A stretch of 64,000 nucleotides of DNA. Origin: Echinicola soli. Its GTDB lineage: Bacteria > Bacteroidota > Bacteroidia > Cytophagales > Cyclobacteriaceae. Location: the NCBI RefSeq assembly GCF_006575665.1, contig NZ_CP041253.1, positions 3,571,001 through 3,635,000 of the forward strand, given 5' to 3'. This document shows positions 5,293 to 27,944 of this stretch, in pieces (the stretch's first letter is position 1; each line of letters begins with the position of its first letter). The position numbers and the translations under genes are program-made. Below the pieces are notes generated by a model. It was given only the letters and a program-made list of their open reading frames with translations, was not told where the DNA came from and searched no databases.

Positions 5293-6501
5293 TTACTTAA
5301 AAGCCGGGATTCCTGTAATCTCATTTCCCAATATCAATAAGTGAATGTCGTGCGTGCCCTCATAGGTAATAACCGATTCCAGGTTCATCATGTGACGCAT
5401 GATGGGATATTCTCCGGTGATTCCCATTCCTCCATGGATCTGCCGCGCCTCACGAGCGATGTTCAGGGCCATGTCCACATTATTTCGTTTGGCCATGGAG
5501 ATTTGTGCGGAAGTGGCTTTGCCTAGTGTCTTTAATGTGCCTAATCGCCATACCAACAGCTGGGCCTTAGTGATTTCAGTAAGCATTTCGGCCAGTTTTT
5601 TCTGAACTAACTGAAAAGAAGCAATCGGCTTGTCAAACTGAATACGTTCTAAGGAATATCGCTTAGCAGATTCATAGCAGTCCATAGCTGCTCCAATGGC
5701 CCCCCAGGCGATTCCATACCTGGCAGAGTCCAGGCACATCAGTGGTGCACTGAGTCCTGATTTTCCCGGCAAGAGATTTTCCTTTGGGATTTTTACATTG
5801 TCGAAAACCAGTTCACCGGTACAGCTAGCACGAAGCGACCATTTGTGGTGGGTTTCGGGAGTGGAGAAACCTTCCATACCCCTTTCTACGATAAGTCCAT
5901 GGATCCGATCATTTACATCTTTGGCCCAAACTACAGCGATATCTGCATCAGGCGCATTTGAAATCCACATTTTGGCGCCATTCAGCAAATAGTGATCGCC
6001 ATTGTCTTTAAAGTGTGTTTGCATGCCGCCGGGATTGGAGCCGTGGTCTGGTTCGGTAAGGCCAAAACACCCTAGCCATTCGCCGGAAGCCAATTTAGGT
6101 AAATATTTCTTGCGCTGTTCTTCACTTCCCATGGCATAGATAGGGTACATGACCAGAGAGCCTTGAACCGAAGCAGTGGAACGCATACCTGAATCGCCAC
6201 GTTCGATTTCTTGCATGATCAGTCCGTAGGATATATAGTCCAAGCCTCCGCCTCCATATTCGACAGGGATTTGTGGTCCAAAAGCACCAACATCACCAAA
6301 TTTTGGTACAATTTCGGAAGGGAAATGGGCGTTTTGGGACCAATCTTCGATGTAAGGGGATATTTCTTTTTTGACAAAGTCCCTTATGGATTGCCGGATC
6401 AGTAAGTGTTCCTCTGTCAGCAGTTCATCGATGCCGTAAAAGTCCACACCTTCAAAGAGATCTTGTTTTGCAGAAGTGTTTTGATCTTGAAATGACGACA
6501 T
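5293..6501 (-). CDS. gcdH: acyl-CoA dehydrogenase, glutaryl-CoA dehydrogenase type
   Basis: 402 residues, about the length of mature glutaryl-CoA dehydrogenase. The FAD/substrate signatures are intact: FGLTEPDHGSNPGGMQT (about residues 149-165) and QIHGGMGITGEYPIMRHMMN in the C-terminal domain. TYEGTHDIH carries the glutamate expected as catalytic base. The enzyme would oxidatively decarboxylate glutaryl-CoA to crotonyl-CoA in lysine and tryptophan breakdown. It stands head-to-head with a tryptophan 2,3-dioxygenase homologue, which fits that pathway, although the intermediate kynurenine genes are not in the window. Assignment within the family is by resemblance and context. Confidence 0.85.
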   Translation of the reverse strand: MSSFQDQNTSAKQDLFEGVDFYGIDELLTEEHLLIRQSIRDFVKKEISPYIEDWSQNAHFPSEIVPKFGDVGAFGPQIPVEYGGGGLDYISYGLIMQEIERGDSGMRSTASVQGSLVMYPIYAMGSEEQRKKYLPKLASGEWLGCFGLTEPDHGSNPGGMQTHFKDNGDHYLLNGAKMWISNAPDADIAVVWAKDVNDRIHGLIVERGMEGFSTPETHHKWSLRASCTGELVFDNVKIPKENLLPGKSGLSAPLMCLDSARYGIAWGAIGAAMDCYESAKRYSLERIQFDKPIASFQLVQKKLAEMLTEITKAQLLVWRLGTLKTLGKATSAQISMAKRNNVDMALNIAREARQIHGGMGITGEYPIMRHMMNLESVITYEGTHDIHLLILGNEITGIPAFK

Positions 6502-6630
6502 ATAATTTTGGTTTATTGGGTTTTTAGATGGAATTTTGCACTTTATACTTTGGTAATTATTTCTCTAAAGCTTCTAAAAGATAGCCAAGAAGTTTGAAAA
6601 AAAGACAGCGAAGCTGTAAAAAATAAATCC

Positions 6631-7602
6631 ATGAACAAGGAGCAACCATCTAAAGAGATCATCGAGAAAATCCAGTTGTTACATGAAAAGTATAAGGCTT
6701 CTGGTCAAGACATGCTTTCTTACTTAGAGGGGTTATTGTATGCAGATTACCTTACTTACTGGGACTATATCAATCTCGACACACTACTGACCTTACAGCA
6801 GCCAAGAACCTCCTTTAAGGACGAAAAAATCTTTATCATTTACCATCAGATTACGGAGCTTTACTTTAACCTGATCATATGGGAGCTTGAGCAAATATGT
6901 GAAAAAGATGATATGAATGCTGCCTTATTGAAACAGCGTTTGGAGCGGATTATCATGTATTTTGACCAGTTGATCTCTTCTTTTTCGGTCATGTGGAAGG
7001 GGATGGAAAAGGATCAGTTCCTTAAATTCAGGATGTCACTATTGCCATCCAGTGGGTTTCAGAGTGCCCAATATCGTATAATTGAAATCATGTCTACCGA
7101 GATACAGTATCTGGTGAACCTCCAGGAAAGAGAAGATTACAGCGATATTAACCTCACTAATGTAGACAGTCTTTTTGATATCCTATATTGGCAGTTTGGT
7201 GCCAAGGAGCTTGCAACTGGTGAGAAAACCCTTACCTTGAAGACATTTGAAGAAAAATATGGAAAGCAGCTAAAGGAACTGATCCTAAAGTATAGAAAGA
7301 AAAACTTGTGGAAGATCTATCAGCACTGTCCTGAAATTGATGATGAGCTGACCGACCTGATGAGGATGTTAGACCTGAAGGCAAATGTCTATTGGCCTTT
7401 GGCACATTATAAATCGGCTGTACGTTATCTTCATCGGGCACCTGCTGACATTGCTGCCACTGGAGGGACCAATTGGCAGAAGTACCTTCCCCCACGTTTC
7501 CAAAAAGTGGTATTCTATCCTGAGCTTTGGACCGAGAAGGAAATTGAGGAGTGGGGAAAAGGATGGGTGGTCAAAGAAATCTTTGGTCAGGAAGAAGCAT
7601 GA
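6631..7602 (+). CDS. kynA: tryptophan 2,3-dioxygenase family haem protein
   Basis: 323 residues, somewhat longer than most bacterial enzymes (about 280-300). The family opens tryptophan to N-formylkynurenine using haem. Compared from memory with the Xanthomonas campestris enzyme, Phe51 and His55 correspond to F68 and H72 (FIIYHQITELYF), Arg117 to R134, haem ligand His240 to H259 (AHYKSAV) and Thr254 to T277 (ATGGTNW). Tyr113 is replaced by F130 (QFLKFR), and the segment between haem ligand and TGG is four residues longer. The SSGFQSAQYR core is intact. It is divergent from the glutaryl-CoA dehydrogenase gene with 129 bases between. Substrate could be tryptophan or a related indole. Confidence 0.85.
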   Translation: MNKEQPSKEIIEKIQLLHEKYKASGQDMLSYLEGLLYADYLTYWDYINLDTLLTLQQPRTSFKDEKIFIIYHQITELYFNLIIWELEQICEKDDMNAALLKQRLERIIMYFDQLISSFSVMWKGMEKDQFLKFRMSLLPSSGFQSAQYRIIEIMSTEIQYLVNLQEREDYSDINLTNVDSLFDILYWQFGAKELATGEKTLTLKTFEEKYGKQLKELILKYRKKNLWKIYQHCPEIDDELTDLMRMLDLKANVYWPLAHYKSAVRYLHRAPADIAATGGTNWQKYLPPRFQKVVFYPELWTEKEIEEWGKGWVVKEIFGQEEA

Positions 7603-22512: not shown

Positions 22513-23376
22513 TTAATATTGGTGAAAGGCTTGTGTAACATACTGCAATACTAAAGGTAAAGATTTTCTCCAATAAGTCCAAGTATGTCCTCCATCTCTT
22601 ATTCTGAATTCATGGGGGATTTCATGCTTTCTCATGGCAATATGGACCAAACTATTTCCTTCATAAAGAAAGTCATCATCACCACAGTCAATATACCATC
22701 TGATGGCTTTCTTATCCTCTTCTGGGATTTGTGCAATTAGGGAGAGCGCATTATGATTTTCATAATACGCTTGGAGTTGCTGGTCTGTATAGTTCTTCGT
22801 ATCCATTCTCCTTTTCATTTCATCTAAGGATAATGGGCCTACATAGGCACTTAACGGAGCTGCAGATGAAAATAATTCAGGATGATGTAAAGCGTAAATC
22901 ATGCTTCCTCCGCCTCCCATCGATAGGCCTGCGACGGCGCGATACTGCTTTTCACCCTTAATACGGTATTTCCCTTCTACATGTGGAATAAACTCCTCAA
23001 AAAAGAAGTCTTCATAATTCCAGTCACCATCGATCTGGTTAAAATATCCTCGTCTGCCCGTATCGGCATCAGGCATCACAATGATCATAGGAGTAGCTTT
23101 TCCTTCATGGATGGCTCGGTCGGCAATATGAAGTACTTCTCCAAACTGCACCCATCCAGTCTGATCATCTCCTGCTCCGTGAAGCAGGTATAGCACTGGA
23201 TAGCTTCGTTCAGATGTTTCATAATCAGGAGGGAGGTAGATCGCATATTTTCTTTCACTTCCCAAAATCTCACTTTGCAGCGTGAGCTCATCATATACTT
23301 TTCCGGTTTGGGCATAAGAAAGGGAAGAGGCAAGCAGCGATACCAATCCAATGAATAGACTTAGCATAATTTTCAT
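22513..23376 (-). CDS. secreted esterase D-like alpha/beta hydrolase
   Basis: 287 residues. A signal peptide (MKIMLSLFIGLVSLLASSLSYAQ) precedes an esterase-D fold (PF00756). The nucleophile serine is in AGLSMGGGGS (about residue 171), and the catalytic histidine is in RDGGHTWTYW (about residue 263). The acidic member is probably in the DCGDDDFLY segment. LYLLHGAGDDQTGW near residue 60 forms the oxyanion region. Relatives include feruloyl and acetyl-xylan esterases and S-formylglutathione hydrolases; export suggests a polysaccharide ester. A promoter-like pair lies at 23399-23427. Confidence 0.88.
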   Translation of the reverse strand: MKIMLSLFIGLVSLLASSLSYAQTGKVYDELTLQSEILGSERKYAIYLPPDYETSERSYPVLYLLHGAGDDQTGWVQFGEVLHIADRAIHEGKATPMIIVMPDADTGRRGYFNQIDGDWNYEDFFFEEFIPHVEGKYRIKGEKQYRAVAGLSMGGGGSMIYALHHPELFSSAAPLSAYVGPLSLDEMKRRMDTKNYTDQQLQAYYENHNALSLIAQIPEEDKKAIRWYIDCGDDDFLYEGNSLVHIAMRKHEIPHEFRIRDGGHTWTYWRKSLPLVLQYVTQAFHQY

Positions 23377-23470: not shown

Positions 23471-24331
23471 TCACAAAAGTGATTTGATGACATCTTTCGC
23501 TTTGTCGAGCTGTCCCCTGAAAACCACCTTTCCTTCTGTATTAAGCACCACGACTGTTGGGTAGACGTACACCCCAAAATCATCCATGACTTTTTGGGTT
23601 CCTTGTAGGACATTGAAATCATAGCCTTTTTTACGGATGGACTCAAAAGCCTGGCCGGGATGGTCACTGTTCATAGGGCGATTAACAGCATAAATAGCGA
23701 TTTCCGGTTGATCACGGTATTGCTCGTGGAGTTGCTGTAGGTCGGGAAATTTCTTCCAGCAGGGGGCACAGCCTATAAACCAAAAATCCAATAGGACAAT
23801 TTTACCTTTAAGGTGTTCATTAATGATTTCTCGTCCCGCTTCATCAGTCACCTTAAATGTAACCGAGGTTTCTTCTGCCACCTGCCCTGAAGTATTGCCA
23901 AATTCTATATAATGAACCCATGTATCGTATATCTTAAGGTTTAACATAAAAGGGAAAAGAAACAGTAAGAAGGTGTAGTGGTAGCGTTTATTGATGTTAC
24001 CCGCAGTGAAAATAGCAGCGGCCAATACTCCCAATACCAAACAGAGAATCGTGGGAAATACTTTCATGGCAAACTTTAAGCTAGGAAGACTGATAAAAGC
24101 AAAAAGAATGACGGCAAAGAGAGAAGCGGAAATCACCCACTTCGAAGGAAAAAGTTTCGAGAGCTTTTGGATGCAAAGTGCGTCAATCAAAAAAATCAAC
24201 GTAAAGCCAAGCAGGGCACCAAATCCCCACAGGGTATAGTCCCTTGACAAGGATAAAATGTGAGCGCTAATAAAAAAAGTGACGATGAATAGGATGACTG
24301 ACAGAAAAATCCTGATAATGGTTGTTTTCAT
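23471..24331 (-). CDS. membrane-anchored thioredoxin-like (TlpA family) protein
   Basis: 286 residues. The first 150 contain about five hydrophobic segments, an unusual multi-helix anchor. The C-terminal 130 residues form a TlpA-type thioredoxin domain with the redox motif FIGCAPCWKKFP (CAPC) and the cis-proline region VYPTVVVLN. It would face the periplasm and reduce or isomerise disulfides, or receive electrons from the membrane part. It follows pxpC on the same strand after 60 bases but has no obvious link to 5-oxoproline use. Confidence 0.85.
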   Translation of the reverse strand: MKTTIIRIFLSVILFIVTFFISAHILSLSRDYTLWGFGALLGFTLIFLIDALCIQKLSKLFPSKWVISASLFAVILFAFISLPSLKFAMKVFPTILCLVLGVLAAAIFTAGNINKRYHYTFLLFLFPFMLNLKIYDTWVHYIEFGNTSGQVAEETSVTFKVTDEAGREIINEHLKGKIVLLDFWFIGCAPCWKKFPDLQQLHEQYRDQPEIAIYAVNRPMNSDHPGQAFESIRKKGYDFNVLQGTQKVMDDFGVYVYPTVVVLNTEGKVVFRGQLDKAKDVIKSLL

Positions 24332-24391: not shown

Positions 24392-25264
24392 TCACCATTC
24401 GTCGATAAGTTTAAAACTGACTTTATCACCTTGTTTTTTTTGCGATAGGCAAGAGATTGCCTGAGGGGAAAGCTGAAGGACACGAGGATAGCCGCCTGTC
24501 ACTTGGGCATCTCGCATGAGGATCATTAATTGCCCCCCAGGGGTCAATTGGACAGTCCCGGGATAGACGGGTGAGGTAAGGATTTCGCTGAGATTGTTGT
24601 CAACTTTTTCTTCCAGCTGTATGCCCATTCTGTTCTGTTTGGCAGAAAGGTGAAAATCCCTTGTCAAGAGCTGCTCGAAAAGTGCTTCATCCATCTCAGC
24701 TGCTTCAGCCCCTGGGTATACTTCTAACACCTCATCTTCAAACAGCGCATCATCCATGGCTACTTTGGCATGCGCAGCTGGTCGTTCATTTGTAGCGGCT
24801 TGATAGGAGAGCCGCATGCCTTTTTCCAGTTTGTTACTTTTGGTAATTCCCGCATACCAGCTTTTACTGCCCAGGACTTCTTCGGTTTGGAAACCGCCAT
24901 CGATGCCTAGGTAAATCCTACAGCCTTTTTTTGCTGGAGAGAGTTTGAGAAAGTCGTCTGCTGCGATGTCGATGACGTGGTTGATGGGATAGGTGTGGCC
25001 GTTTACCTGAATTTTTATAGGGGCACCGGTGACTATGATGGTTGTGGGATGGAGAAAGCGAAATTCCCCACCGATCATGGTGAGTTCCAAACAAGCATCA
25101 TTTGGAGCGTTTTTGAGTAAGTGATTGGCCAGTAGGAAGGACTGCTCGTCCATGGCTCCAGCCGCAGGAATTCCCCAATGCGCATATCCAAATCTGCCAT
25201 GATCTTGAATGGATCCATAAAATCCCGGTTTGATGACTTCCAAAATTCCCTCAGATTTTTTCAT
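24392..25264 (-). CDS. pxpC: 5-oxoprolinase subunit C (biotin-dependent carboxyltransferase-like)
   Basis: 290 residues, usual for PxpC/KipA. The N-terminal signature VIKPGFYGSIQDHGRFGYAH and the MDEQSFLLANHLL stretch are clear, as is TSPVYPGTVQLTPGGQLMIL further on. With PxpB and PxpA it forms the ATP-dependent prokaryotic 5-oxoprolinase, which converts pyroglutamate to glutamate. The start overlaps the end of pxpB by 14 bases, so translation is coupled. Last of the pxp genes in the operon. Confidence 0.95.
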   Translation of the reverse strand: MKKSEGILEVIKPGFYGSIQDHGRFGYAHWGIPAAGAMDEQSFLLANHLLKNAPNDACLELTMIGGEFRFLHPTTIIVTGAPIKIQVNGHTYPINHVIDIAADDFLKLSPAKKGCRIYLGIDGGFQTEEVLGSKSWYAGITKSNKLEKGMRLSYQAATNERPAAHAKVAMDDALFEDEVLEVYPGAEAAEMDEALFEQLLTRDFHLSAKQNRMGIQLEEKVDNNLSEILTSPVYPGTVQLTPGGQLMILMRDAQVTGGYPRVLQLSPQAISCLSQKKQGDKVSFKLIDEW

Positions 25265-25967
25265 GTTGCAGTTGGTAGTTTCCTTCTTTTATTTCCGAAA
25301 TAATATCTTGATAACTTTCCTCCGTGACTGCCTCAAATTTGATTTTATCACCGGGTTGAGGTTTTAGCGGAGGATCCGATTTGACGTCAAATAATTGAAC
25401 AGGAGTTCTTCCAATCACATTCCATCCTCCAGGGCTGTTCATGGGGTAAATACCCGTTTGTTTTCCGCCGATAGCCACTGCTCCCTTTTCGATCAATGGA
25501 TCAGGCTGCTTTTTTCTGGGTACAAAGAGCTGGTTATCCAGACCACCCAGATACATAAACCCAGGCATAAACCCATAAAAATGTAAGAGATAATTAGGTG
25601 TTTGATGAAGTGTAATGATCTTGTCGGGAGCCATGCCGGTGTGTTTGGCTACTTTCTCTAGATCTTTTCCTGAGTACCAAACGGGGATCATCCATTTTTT
25701 CCTGGTGAAATCTACAGGCGAACCGCCATTTTTTTCAGCAATGTGCTCCAGTTCATTAAGGACATCATTGAGCCGAAAAGGTGATTTAAAGTGAAGACTT
25801 AAGCAATGATATCCCATGCTGACTTCCAGCAACTCATCCTGCCAAATCTTCTGGATATGTGTTTTCATGGACATCATTTCCATCAGCGTGGACTCATCGA
25901 TTGAAGCAGGCCAATACAGTTCCAGTATCATTGGGGAGATATGCTTGTATTTGAATTGATGTGACAT
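25251..25967 (-). CDS. pxpB: 5-oxoprolinase subunit B (KipI-like)
   Basis: 238 residues, the KipI/PxpB length. The cyclophilin-like family pattern is seen in LLHFYGFMPGFMYLGGLD and in KGAVAIGGKQTGIYPMNSPG followed by GWNVIGRTPVQLFD. It is the partner of PxpC in ATP-dependent 5-oxoproline hydrolysis. KipI homologues in Bacillus inhibit a sporulation kinase, but the complete pxpABC set here points to the metabolic role. 40 bases separate it from pxpA, and it overlaps pxpC. Confidence 0.95.
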   Translation of the reverse strand: MSHQFKYKHISPMILELYWPASIDESTLMEMMSMKTHIQKIWQDELLEVSMGYHCLSLHFKSPFRLNDVLNELEHIAEKNGGSPVDFTRKKWMIPVWYSGKDLEKVAKHTGMAPDKIITLHQTPNYLLHFYGFMPGFMYLGGLDNQLFVPRKKQPDPLIEKGAVAIGGKQTGIYPMNSPGGWNVIGRTPVQLFDVKSDPPLKPQPGDKIKFEAVTEESYQDIISEIKEGNYQLQHEKI

Positions 25968-26007: not shown

Positions 26008-26718
26008 TTAATTTTTCAAGGCCTTATGAATGGCCTTGGTCAGCGCTAAAGCTCCGGGATTATCTCCATGGACACATACGGTATCAGCTACGATTTGGAG
26101 CGTTTTTCCTGATATGGTCTGCACCTTTCCTGTAACCATTTTTTTTAAGTGCTTGATGGCATCTTCAGGGGCGTGGAGCAGTGCATTGGGTTTGTTTCTG
26201 GAAACAAGGCTCAAGTCATCATTATAGTTTCTGTCTGCAAATACTTCATACCAGACTTCCAGTCCATTTTCTTTGGCTACTTTAGCCATGAAAGATCCGT
26301 AAGGGGCGTAAACGATGGCTTCAGGATAGTGGGTTTTAATAAGAGCGACGAGTAAACTGGCTGTATCCAAATCCTTAGCGGCCAAGTTATACAGGGCACC
26401 ATGGGGCTTGATATGGTGCAGTGTGGCGTCAGTTTGAGAAAGGGCCTCTTGAAAATCCCTTAGCTGTGAAAGAATAGTCTCCAGCAATTGTTCGGCTGGA
26501 ATATCCATGGTTTTTCGTCCAAAATGTTCACGATCTGGAAAGGAGGGATGAGCACCGATTTTTACATGGTGCTTTTGTGCCAATTTGATAGTGTTGGCCA
26601 TCGTTTTTTGATCTCCGGCATGTCCACCACAGGCGATATTGCAACTGGTAATGTAGGGCATCACATCAGCATCGGATGACATTCCTTCCCCGAGATCGCA
26701 ATTGATATCTATCGTCAT
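26008..26718 (-). CDS. pxpA: 5-oxoprolinase subunit A (LamB/YcsF family)
   Basis: 236 residues. Family signatures are intact: DINCDLGEGMSSDADVMPY at the start, SCNIACGGHAGDQKTMANTI, GAHPSFPDREHFGRK and VCVHGDNPGALAL at the end. The family has a deacetylase-like barrel and supplies the hydrolytic part of 5-oxoprolinase. Its ATG overlaps the stop codon of the Nramp-like gene by 4 bases, so all four genes are read as one unit. Confidence 0.95.
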   Translation of the reverse strand: MTIDINCDLGEGMSSDADVMPYITSCNIACGGHAGDQKTMANTIKLAQKHHVKIGAHPSFPDREHFGRKTMDIPAEQLLETILSQLRDFQEALSQTDATLHHIKPHGALYNLAAKDLDTASLLVALIKTHYPEAIVYAPYGSFMAKVAKENGLEVWYEVFADRNYNDDLSLVSRNKPNALLHAPEDAIKHLKKMVTGKVQTISGKTLQIVADTVCVHGDNPGALALTKAIHKALKN

Positions 26719-27944
26719 AAGCTCCAGTTTTGTATCACACTTAAAATACTTTTACATCCCAATATCAAGGTGATGGCCCAAATGGCAAAGCCTAAAATAT
26801 TGGCCAAAAGATTATTTTTGTAGGCGCCCATTATCTTGGGCTTATTGACCATCCATAGAATAAAGGTACTTAAAACAGGTAATAAAATCCCGTTTGCAAG
26901 TTGGGCCATTGCAATCAACTCGATTGGTTTGATTCCCAGAGAAGCAAAAATCACACCGAGTAGAAGAATGGCACTGAAGGTCCAGCGCATGGGCTTTGCC
27001 GAGAGGTTATTATTCCATCCGAAGCAGCTGCAGATCACAAGCCCACCTGCCAACGGTGCAGTGATGGATGATGTTATACCAGCCGAGAACAGACCAATGC
27101 CCAAAAAATATGGGGCAAAGGATCCTAACAGAGGGACAAGGCTTTCACTCAAATCAGTGATGACTTCCACTTGTTTGGCATTTCCCATAGTGCCGGTCAC
27201 CAAAATGGCCATGGATACCAATCCCCCTAAAATAACAGCGATAAAAATGTCAACTCTTACGTAGCAAAGTGCTATTGGATTTTTCCATTTTCGTGAAACT
27301 AATGATGAATGGAGAAAGAGGTTATATGGAACCACTGTTGTTCCGATCAAAGCGACGATGGTGATAATATTATCTCTACGCACACTGGGGACAAAACCCG
27401 CCAGTAGTGTAGTTAAATGGGGCTTTCCCGCCACCGCTGTAACCAGAAACACCATACTCATCATCAATACCACCCCAATCATAAACCTCTCGATTTGTCT
27501 ATAATTTCCGCACATCAAGAGTCCCCAAGCCACCAATCCCGTAAGCATGGGCATTGGCCGAAAATACCCTCCAAAAGTTGAGGTTGCCTTATTGGGTAGA
27601 AATACTTCCAAGCCCATCACTGCCCCACTAAGATTCCCTGCTTCATAGGCTGCATTTCCCATCACAATAGCTGTGATGACCAATCCCAAAGCGATTGTTC
27701 TAACAGCCTTGGTCGGAATTTCGGCTCTCATGACTTCAGGCAATCCCTTCTGGGTGATCAGACCGATTCTTGCGGCCATTTCTTGCAGGACGATAGTAGC
27801 GATCACTGACAATAACAGGGCCCATAACAGCTCATAACCGAAATTTACCCCAGCCATACTACATACCGCTACGGTTCCTGGCCCTATAAAGGCAGCCGCG
27901 ACCAATGGTCCTGGCCCCAAGTATTTAGTCCAGTTTTTAATCAT
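26715..27944 (-). CDS. Nramp-fold transporter lacking the canonical metal site, first gene of the pxp operon
   Basis: 409 residues and about eleven membrane helices. The overall Nramp pattern is clear (FGYELLWALLLSVIATIVLQ and NLFLHSSLVSRKW). In canonical Nramp proteins the metal is held by Asp and Asn of DPGN in helix 1 and Met of the MPH motif in helix 6. Here the aligned positions read GPGT (residues 21-24) and VPY (205-207), so all of these ligands are missing. The gene overlaps pxpA by 4 bases. Transport of 5-oxoproline or a related amino acid, coupled to its hydrolysis by PxpABC, is a reasonable inference; metal transport is unlikely. Confidence 0.88.
   Translation of the reverse strand: MIKNWTKYLGPGPLVAAAFIGPGTVAVCSMAGVNFGYELLWALLLSVIATIVLQEMAARIGLITQKGLPEVMRAEIPTKAVRTIALGLVITAIVMGNAAYEAGNLSGAVMGLEVFLPNKATSTFGGYFRPMPMLTGLVAWGLLMCGNYRQIERFMIGVVLMMSMVFLVTAVAGKPHLTTLLAGFVPSVRRDNIITIVALIGTTVVPYNLFLHSSLVSRKWKNPIALCYVRVDIFIAVILGGLVSMAILVTGTMGNAKQVEVITDLSESLVPLLGSFAPYFLGIGLFSAGITSSITAPLAGGLVICSCFGWNNNLSAKPMRWTFSAILLLGVIFASLGIKPIELIAMAQLANGILLPVLSTFILWMVNKPKIMGAYKNNLLANILGFAIWAITLILGCKSILSVIQNWSL

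Follow-up and report, generated by a model that had tools for sequence, protein, structure and literature searches.

Members of the Nramp family have been connected with 5-oxoproline (5-OP, pyroglutamate) in some reports and with manganese in others. A C. glutamicum strain without pxpT fails to grow on 5-OP, a defect that is complemented. PxpT belongs to the Nramp family and is 50% identical to YcsG; metal transport by PxpT is left possible by the authors, and the available text of their report contains no motif analysis of the protein (PMC13274462). YcsG itself was renamed MntG and called a Mn2+ importer, the earlier 5-OP result being described as possibly polar (PMC10448178), and MumT of A. 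baumannii, encoded in an operon with urea carboxylase, was likewise called a Mn importer (PMC5050338). An 'orphan' PF01566 group serves as the Slc11 outgroup in an in-silico reference study, Cellier 2023, and is characterized there by the exchanges D to G and N to T on helix 1 and A to T, M to V and H to Y on helix 6, by a Tyr and an Asn four positions apart on helix 3 and by A..NG on helix 10; no function, operon or substrate is assigned to this group in the available part of the article (PMC10606218). Nramp-related proteins that lack DPGN and MPH have furthermore been described as paraphyletic to the canonical ones (PMC12873925, preprint). In the open-licence literature, no paper was found that connects the orphan group with 5-OP or with HyuA/HyuB-type enzymes.

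The preliminary description of the locus presented here had regarded a pyroglutamate carrier with an Nramp fold as a notable change of substrate. The novelty of this idea is reduced by the published 5-OP role of PxpT/YcsG (PMC13274462) and by the motif loss already reported for the orphan outgroup (PMC10606218), so that motif loss and, for a distant cousin only, the 5-OP substrate idea are already known. The new observations are that the orphan-outgroup subfamily is linked, in bacteria and haloarchaea, to oxoprolinase-type enzymes of two non-homologous kinds, and that it has pocket-helix residues in common with its YcsG-type cousin.

The carrier gene and its operon

The window, i.e. the whole stretch of 64,000 nucleotides from Echinicola soli that was analysed (contig NZ_CP041253.1, positions 3,571,001 to 3,635,000), contains the following features.

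24392..25264, minus strand: pxpC, 5-oxoprolinase subunit C, 290 aa (PF02626, 233.6 bits)
25251..25967, minus strand: pxpB, 5-oxoprolinase subunit B, 238 aa (PF02682; TIGR00370, 147.4 over a cut-off of 145.55)
26008..26718, minus strand: pxpA, 5-oxoprolinase subunit A (LamB/YcsF), 236 aa (PF03746, 295.8 bits; NF003814, 265.5 over a cut-off of 226)
26715..26718, minus strand: ATGA, in which the stop of the carrier gene and the start of pxpA overlap by 4 bases (sequence)
26715..27944, minus strand: Nramp-fold carrier of the GPGT/VPY ('orphan outgroup') type, 409 aa, predicted 5-oxoproline carrier (ORF, Pfam, fold)
26889..26906, minus strand: TM10 motif A347-Q-L-A-N351-G352, its N-G common to the YcsG/PxpT subfamily
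27324..27332, minus strand: TM6 motif VPY, residues 205-207, replacing MPH (sequence and alignment)
27633..27647, minus strand: TM3 motif Y100-E-A-G-N104 (HMMER alignment)
27873..27884, minus strand: TM1 motif GPGT, residues 21-24, replacing DPGN (sequence and alignment)

As the preliminary description had stated, the carrier gene overlaps pxpA by four bases and stands at the head of pxpABC. The overlap reads ATGA, and pxpA, pxpB and pxpC follow on the same strand; pxpC additionally overlaps pxpB by 14 bases. All three Pfam domains of PxpABC, which was reportedly identified in a 2017 paper, are present, the score of PxpC in its equivalog model being 156.2 versus a cut-off of 500. A promoter/terminator scan gave results near chance (16 vs 13.0 and 8 vs 6.2). 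On the 3′ side of pxpC, genes for a thioredoxin-like-domain protein (23471-24331) and an esterase (22513-23376) lie on the same minus strand.

The carrier is a PF01566 Nramp (268.4 bits, meeting the Pfam gathering score) that passes the broader Nramp_1 model NF037982 (74.6 vs a cut-off of 50) and does not reach the MntH model NF001923 (162.3 vs 430) or TIGR01197 (92.8 vs 272.5). Its closest named relative among the matches listed is a protein of Echinicola rosea (86%). Scans of viral contigs with P0001 and with A1 confirmed no relative and, consequently, no phage link was found. The replacement of DPGN by GPGT and of MPH by VPY, the starting point of the preliminary description, is borne out by the sequence and the alignment, and both motifs of canonical Nramp/MntH proteins such as DraNramp and BfraNramp are thus absent. 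The Nramp-related Mg2+ transporter EleNRMT (PDB 7qia) also differs from the window protein, with NDAGG instead of GPGT on TM1 and APW instead of VPY on TM6. Good agreement exists with the orphan outgroup of PMC10606218, whose states on helices 1, 6, 3 and 10 are matched by G21 and T24, T202, V205 and Y207, Y100 and N104, and A347, N351 and G352, respectively, although the register of helix 3 seems to differ between that study and the HMMER alignment. A LeuT-like Na2 site on TM8 (A288, T291, S292) was considered and dropped, as canonical Nramps align with similar residues.

The predicted model of the window carrier has a full-length LeuT-type Nramp fold with breaks in TM1 and TM6, and residues around these breaks are conserved. 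Genes as tightly linked as these can encode partners of one complex, and the protein might accordingly control PxpABC as a sensor or partner in the membrane rather than act as a transporter. We consider this highly improbable, because the model predicts a complete carrier fold with both helix breaks and conserved residues around them, and because the related gene pxpT cannot be deleted without loss of growth on 5-OP supplied from outside (PMC13274462).

Gene neighbourhood in Bacteroidota

An even sample of 118 Bacteroidota genomes with a completeness of at least 90%, including that of the window (set A), contains matches over the cut-off to PF01566 in 75, to pxpA (PF03746) in 24 and to HyuB (PF02538) in 18 genomes. 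The 126 Nramps over the Pfam cut-off were kept, a protein that recurred in overlapping loci being counted once, and the neighbour counts exclude Nramp ORFs shorter than 350 aa and PF01566 matches below the Pfam cut-off. The GPGT type is represented by 29 proteins in 29 of the 118 genomes, the window's included. In 16 of the 29 cases pxpABC adjoins the carrier gene on the same strand, at a distance to pxpA of at most 7 nt in 15 loci (with ORF starts as called) and of 1216 nt in one, and in seven the carrier is adjoined by HyuA and HyuB. Six carriers are without pxp or hyu genes within ca. 5 kb; their genomes encode pxpA elsewhere in five cases and HyuB in the sixth. By comparison, none of the 38 canonical DPGN Nramps adjoins pxp or hyu, a count that also rests on genome coordinates as many of these loci are flanked by only 1.5 kb. 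Among the 59 Nramps of other classes two are pxp-linked, both of the GPGF type, and none of the 13 NRMT-like (DNDA) proteins adjoins a pxp or hyu gene. The preliminary description had made its reading dependent on an association of GPGT-type proteins with pxp genes in other genomes, and the adjacency in 16/29 against 0/38 for canonical proteins establishes this association.

The relationship extends to gene content. All 29 GPGT genomes encode pxpA (21) or HyuB (8) versus 13 of the 89 others (hand tally; Fisher p 8e-18, a statistic that ignores relatedness). Conversely, the 24 pxpA genomes comprise 21 with a GPGT and two with a GPGF-type protein and one (G047) with neither; an Nramp is not adjacent in six of the 24 pxpA loci. 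Among close relatives of the window carrier (set B; 79 unique loci from the best 80 of 592 relatives, a choice that biases the set to close kin), pxpA is found on the same strand in 70 loci, at a distance of no more than 277 nt in all but one, and is missing in nine. A GPGS row and a row with a gapped TM1, both with pxpA, are counted among the 79 despite standing outside the strict GPGT label.

Two further groups of Nramp-related proteins were noted in Bacteroidota. The GVSH class (L129-L131, L133-L135, L137-L152) consists of 22 proteins, most of which read GVSH in TM1 and GWMPxPxD in TM6, and has no pxp or hyu neighbour. A small class (L116, L122, L125, L126) carries GTGS on TM1 and GTTM on TM6; its member L125 lies ca. 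10 kb from a pxp locus in genome G089.

HyuA/HyuB partners in bacteria and haloarchaea

The HyuA/HyuB family contains the ATP-dependent 5-oxoprolinase, and its relatives include N-methylhydantoinase, caprolactamase and acetophenone carboxylase. PxpABC and HyuA/HyuB have no Pfam family in common. The tested neighbours of GPGT carriers match PF05378/PF01968/PF19278 and PF02538, as separate proteins in L118 and L119 and as a fusion in L112; HyuA or HyuB was Pfam-checked in three of the seven hyu-linked Bacteroidota loci, the rest being found by profile. Among solved structures, the two proteins tested come closest to 7hk5, an N-methylhydantoinase, and to the chains of 6yra, which are named 5-oxoprolinase and hydantoinase; no curated NCBIfam model is reached by the HyuA/HyuB neighbours. 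Given the varied relatives and the lack of a curated match, HyuAB may act on a substrate other than 5-OP. In L119, a gene for a TRAP-transporter DctM protein (6086-7405, minus strand) lies directly upstream of the HyuA/HyuB-linked carrier gene, and two carriers may serve one enzyme there.

In Pseudomonadota, GPGT-type proteins were detected in five of 199 genomes at E 1e-60, one of the five being the centre genome, which was chosen for having one. The carrier is adjoined by pxpABC in one case (G193), by a fused HyuAB in another (G205) and by neither in three, while each of the five genomes encodes pxpA (4/5), HyuB (2/5) or both. The two linked proteobacterial proteins, L250 with fused HyuAB and L253 with pxpABC, are sisters (SH-aLRT 100) and have different partner enzymes, and at least two partner changes among the linked GPGT rows are required by the tree. 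An 823-aa ORF in L120 was considered as a gene fusion, but its first ca. 400 residues look like a reading frame that is open by chance in sequence of high GC content.

A tblastn search of plasmids returned 588 records, of which 12 regions, ten haloarchaeal and two proteobacterial, were opened. The two proteobacterial regions hold lone GPGT-type genes. All ten haloarchaeal carriers combine GPGT on TM1 with VGY on TM6, and in eight of these loci an annotated HyuA gene begins at the base after the carrier stop codon and is followed by an annotated HyuB gene. In the ninth a HyuA ORF follows the carrier where the record breaks off, and in the Natrononativus locus neither HyuA nor HyuB stands beside it. 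In six of the eight carrier-HyuAB units a gene of the Asp/Glu racemase or maleate isomerase family comes next. Just upstream of the carrier, nine of the ten loci (L234, L236, L242-L247, L249) have a same-strand gene for a ribbon-helix-helix protein of ca. 181-184 aa, possibly a local regulator. Its identification as the metal-responsive regulator NikR was rejected since, in the two of nine proteins tested against Pfam, only the ribbon-helix-helix domain and no NikR C-terminal domain is present. Among 601 plasmid records with pxpA, six loci were opened, few in number, with an adjacent Nramp in one and a TRAP transporter instead in another.

These neighbours raise the question of whether the true substrate is another cyclic amide or small organic acid, for example hydantoin, a lactam or a carboxylate such as glutamate or one related to it, with 5-OP carried through its resemblance or not carried. 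The HyuA/HyuB partners with their N-methylhydantoinase and 5-oxoprolinase/hydantoinase relatives and the racemase or isomerase-family gene in most haloarchaeal units are in line with this alternative. However, the 5-oxoprolinase genes pxpABC are the commoner partner in Bacteroidota (16/29), and 5-OP is, to our knowledge, the one substrate common to the PxpABC and HyuA/HyuB families; we therefore consider a different substrate unlikely.

Relation to the YcsG-type subfamily

The tree comprises all 45 GPGT rows outside set B, four GPGT rows from set B, ten GPGF rows and, from the other classes, 22/38 DPGN, 8/15 DDDP, 8/13 NRMT-like, 8/22 GVSH, 4/4 GTGS and 3/3 miscellaneous rows. It is a quick tree with long branches (L136, L123, L127 and L115 among them), which makes its deep joins unsure. 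The pxp-linked and hyu-linked GPGT members form one clade (SH-aLRT 98), and the notion that they represent different families is thus unsupported. NRMT-like rows form a clade apart. The GPGF (YcsG-type) proteins constitute a clade separate from the GPGT type (SH-aLRT 100, stem 3.96), and a joint GPGT and GPGF clade is compatible with the data (p-AU 0.499).

YcsG was placed by fold comparison with the deposited entry 9a52, titled 'YCSG-FABL', which we take to be the B. subtilis protein. The model 9a52_A is 54% identical to the model of the GPGF-type protein P0166 and 19% to that of the window carrier; YcsG-type proteins and the window carrier are 19-21% identical in a multiple alignment (three rows) and 25% in a BLASTP pair. 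Separate clades and 19% identity led us to reject YcsG as a direct orthologue of the window carrier. PxpT was placed with YcsG by the published 50% identity. The YcsG-type proteins are distinguished by GPGF on TM1 and GGY on TM6, but the clade that holds YcsG resembles the window carrier in the Nramp fold, in the pxp operon and in the GPG, GN, Y and NG sites. The TM3, TM6 and TM10 patterns of the GPGT type recur in 10/10, 10/10 and 9/10 GPGF rows, respectively, versus 0/92 DPGN, DDDP, NRMT-like, GVSH and GTGS proteins; they are also seen in one of four miscellaneous rows, taken to be the one with the gapped TM1.

In two Bacteroidota genomes a GPGF/GGY Nramp gene (L036 in G033, L132 in G072) overlaps pxpA, with ORFs as called, and pxpC and pxpB lie beyond; both genomes have a separate canonical Nramp elsewhere. 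Among GPGF-type plasmid matches (168 records), pxpA stands beside the Nramp in four of the five loci opened (L255 and four others). MumT resembles the window carrier as an Nramp-family protein whose gene heads an operon with carboxyltransferase-domain genes (PMC5050338), and differs in being of the GPGF type, as judged from a locus of A. baumannii in which the genes are arranged as in mum. At this locus (NZ_CP064203.1, L261:4643-12103) a LysR gene is followed by genes for a GPGF-type Nramp, PxpA, a D-glutamate-cyclase family protein, a PxpBC fusion and a biotin carboxylase. Five genes in the published mumTLUHC order, PxpA and PxpBC included, lead us to think of the mum operon as a pxp/5-oxoprolinase operon.

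Metal transport as an alternative

The carrier might still import a divalent metal (Mn2+) needed by PxpABC or by the cell, the operon coupling cofactor supply to the enzyme. Overexpression of YcsG/MntG raised cellular Mn in B. subtilis, where its promoter is bound and repressed by MntR (PMC10448178), and deletion of mumT lowered cellular Mn in A. baumannii with complementation (PMC5050338). The genome of the window, one contig of 5.55 Mb, encodes the window carrier as its single Nramp over the cut-off, besides two ZIP genes and one FeoB gene, and a canonical Nramp accompanies the GPGT type in just two of its 29 genomes, whereas 36 of the 89 genomes without that type have one (Fisher p 5e-4, ignoring relatedness), as if one could replace the other; phylogeny alone may account for this scarcity.

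Several findings argue against metal as the substrate. YcsG and MumT belong, as far as tested, to the other (GPGF) subfamily, and the available text of PMC10448178 contains neither 'liposome' nor 'purified YcsG'. The window type lacks, in the HMMER alignment, the equivalents of D56, N59, M230, H232 and E134. N104 is aligned to what we take to be Glu134 in DraNramp numbering. At a threshold of 97%, no acidic column is conserved in 124 GPGT rows (the window protein counted twice), nor in the 29-row Bacteroidota sample, in comparison to five in each of four random 29-row draws of DPGN proteins; the pxp-linked (n = 16) and hyu-linked (n = 17) subsets keep four and one, respectively, and the missing acidic column is a property of the whole class and not of its parts. 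Together with the lack of any pxp or hyu neighbour of canonical Nramps, these data make metal transport an improbable function of the window carrier, and the public label 'Nramp family divalent metal transporter' is probably wrong for GPGT-type proteins of many genomes.

Proposed function

The preferred reading is that the window carrier brings in 5-OP or a very close cyclic amide, which we regard as probable. Linkage of one carrier type to the pxp genes and to a non-homologous oxoprolinase/hydantoinase makes 5-OP the most economical substrate, and this linkage (pxp in 16/29, HyuAB in 7/29) lends partial support to the pyroglutamate carrier idea of the preliminary description, the substrate itself being deduced. 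As YcsG stands outside the subfamily of the window carrier, the published 5-OP phenotype is not simply transferable, and 5-OP transport by the GPGT type is a prediction from gene context and sequence. Genes unlinked to pxp or hyu count against it (6/29 in Bacteroidota, 9/79 among the close relatives and 3/5 in proteobacteria), as do the pxpA loci that lack an adjacent Nramp (6/24 in Bacteroidota, 5/6 on plasmids), the Mn2+ phenotypes published for the YcsG-type subfamily, the scarcity of canonical Nramps in GPGT genomes and the variety of HyuA/HyuB relatives.

We propose the following scenario. The protein would act as a secondary carrier of the Nramp (LeuT/APC) fold, the central site of which would bind 5-OP or a very close cyclic amide and move it into the cell. 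Side chains, together with backbone partners where TM1 and TM6 are unwound, set the pocket in APC carriers (PMC5809530). By analogy with other amino-acid carriers of this superfamily, the GPG motif, rich in glycine and located where helix TM1 is broken, might offer backbone contacts to the carboxylate. PxpABC, whose genes overlap or closely follow one another behind that of the carrier and are presumably co-transcribed with it, would then open the 5-OP ring with ATP to form glutamate.

A wider reading, which we put forward tentatively and hold to be possible rather than probable, unites the orphan Slc11 outgroup and the YcsG/PxpT/MumT clade in one old class of pyroglutamate carriers that serve PxpABC and HyuAB-type enzymes in bacteria and archaea. 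The marks of such a class would be GPG on TM1, GN on TM3, xxY on TM6 and NG on TM10. If it exists, the metal-transporting Nramps would have branched off from carriers of organic substrates, and the metal phenotypes of YcsG/MntG and MumT would be indirect effects of pyroglutamate carriers. The analysis bears on the contradiction in print as to whether YcsG is a 5-OP carrier or a Mn2+ importer, provides a testable substrate for the group that serves as the 'orphan' outgroup in the study of Nramp evolution and touches on the origin of a metal carrier family inside a superfamily of amino-acid carriers.
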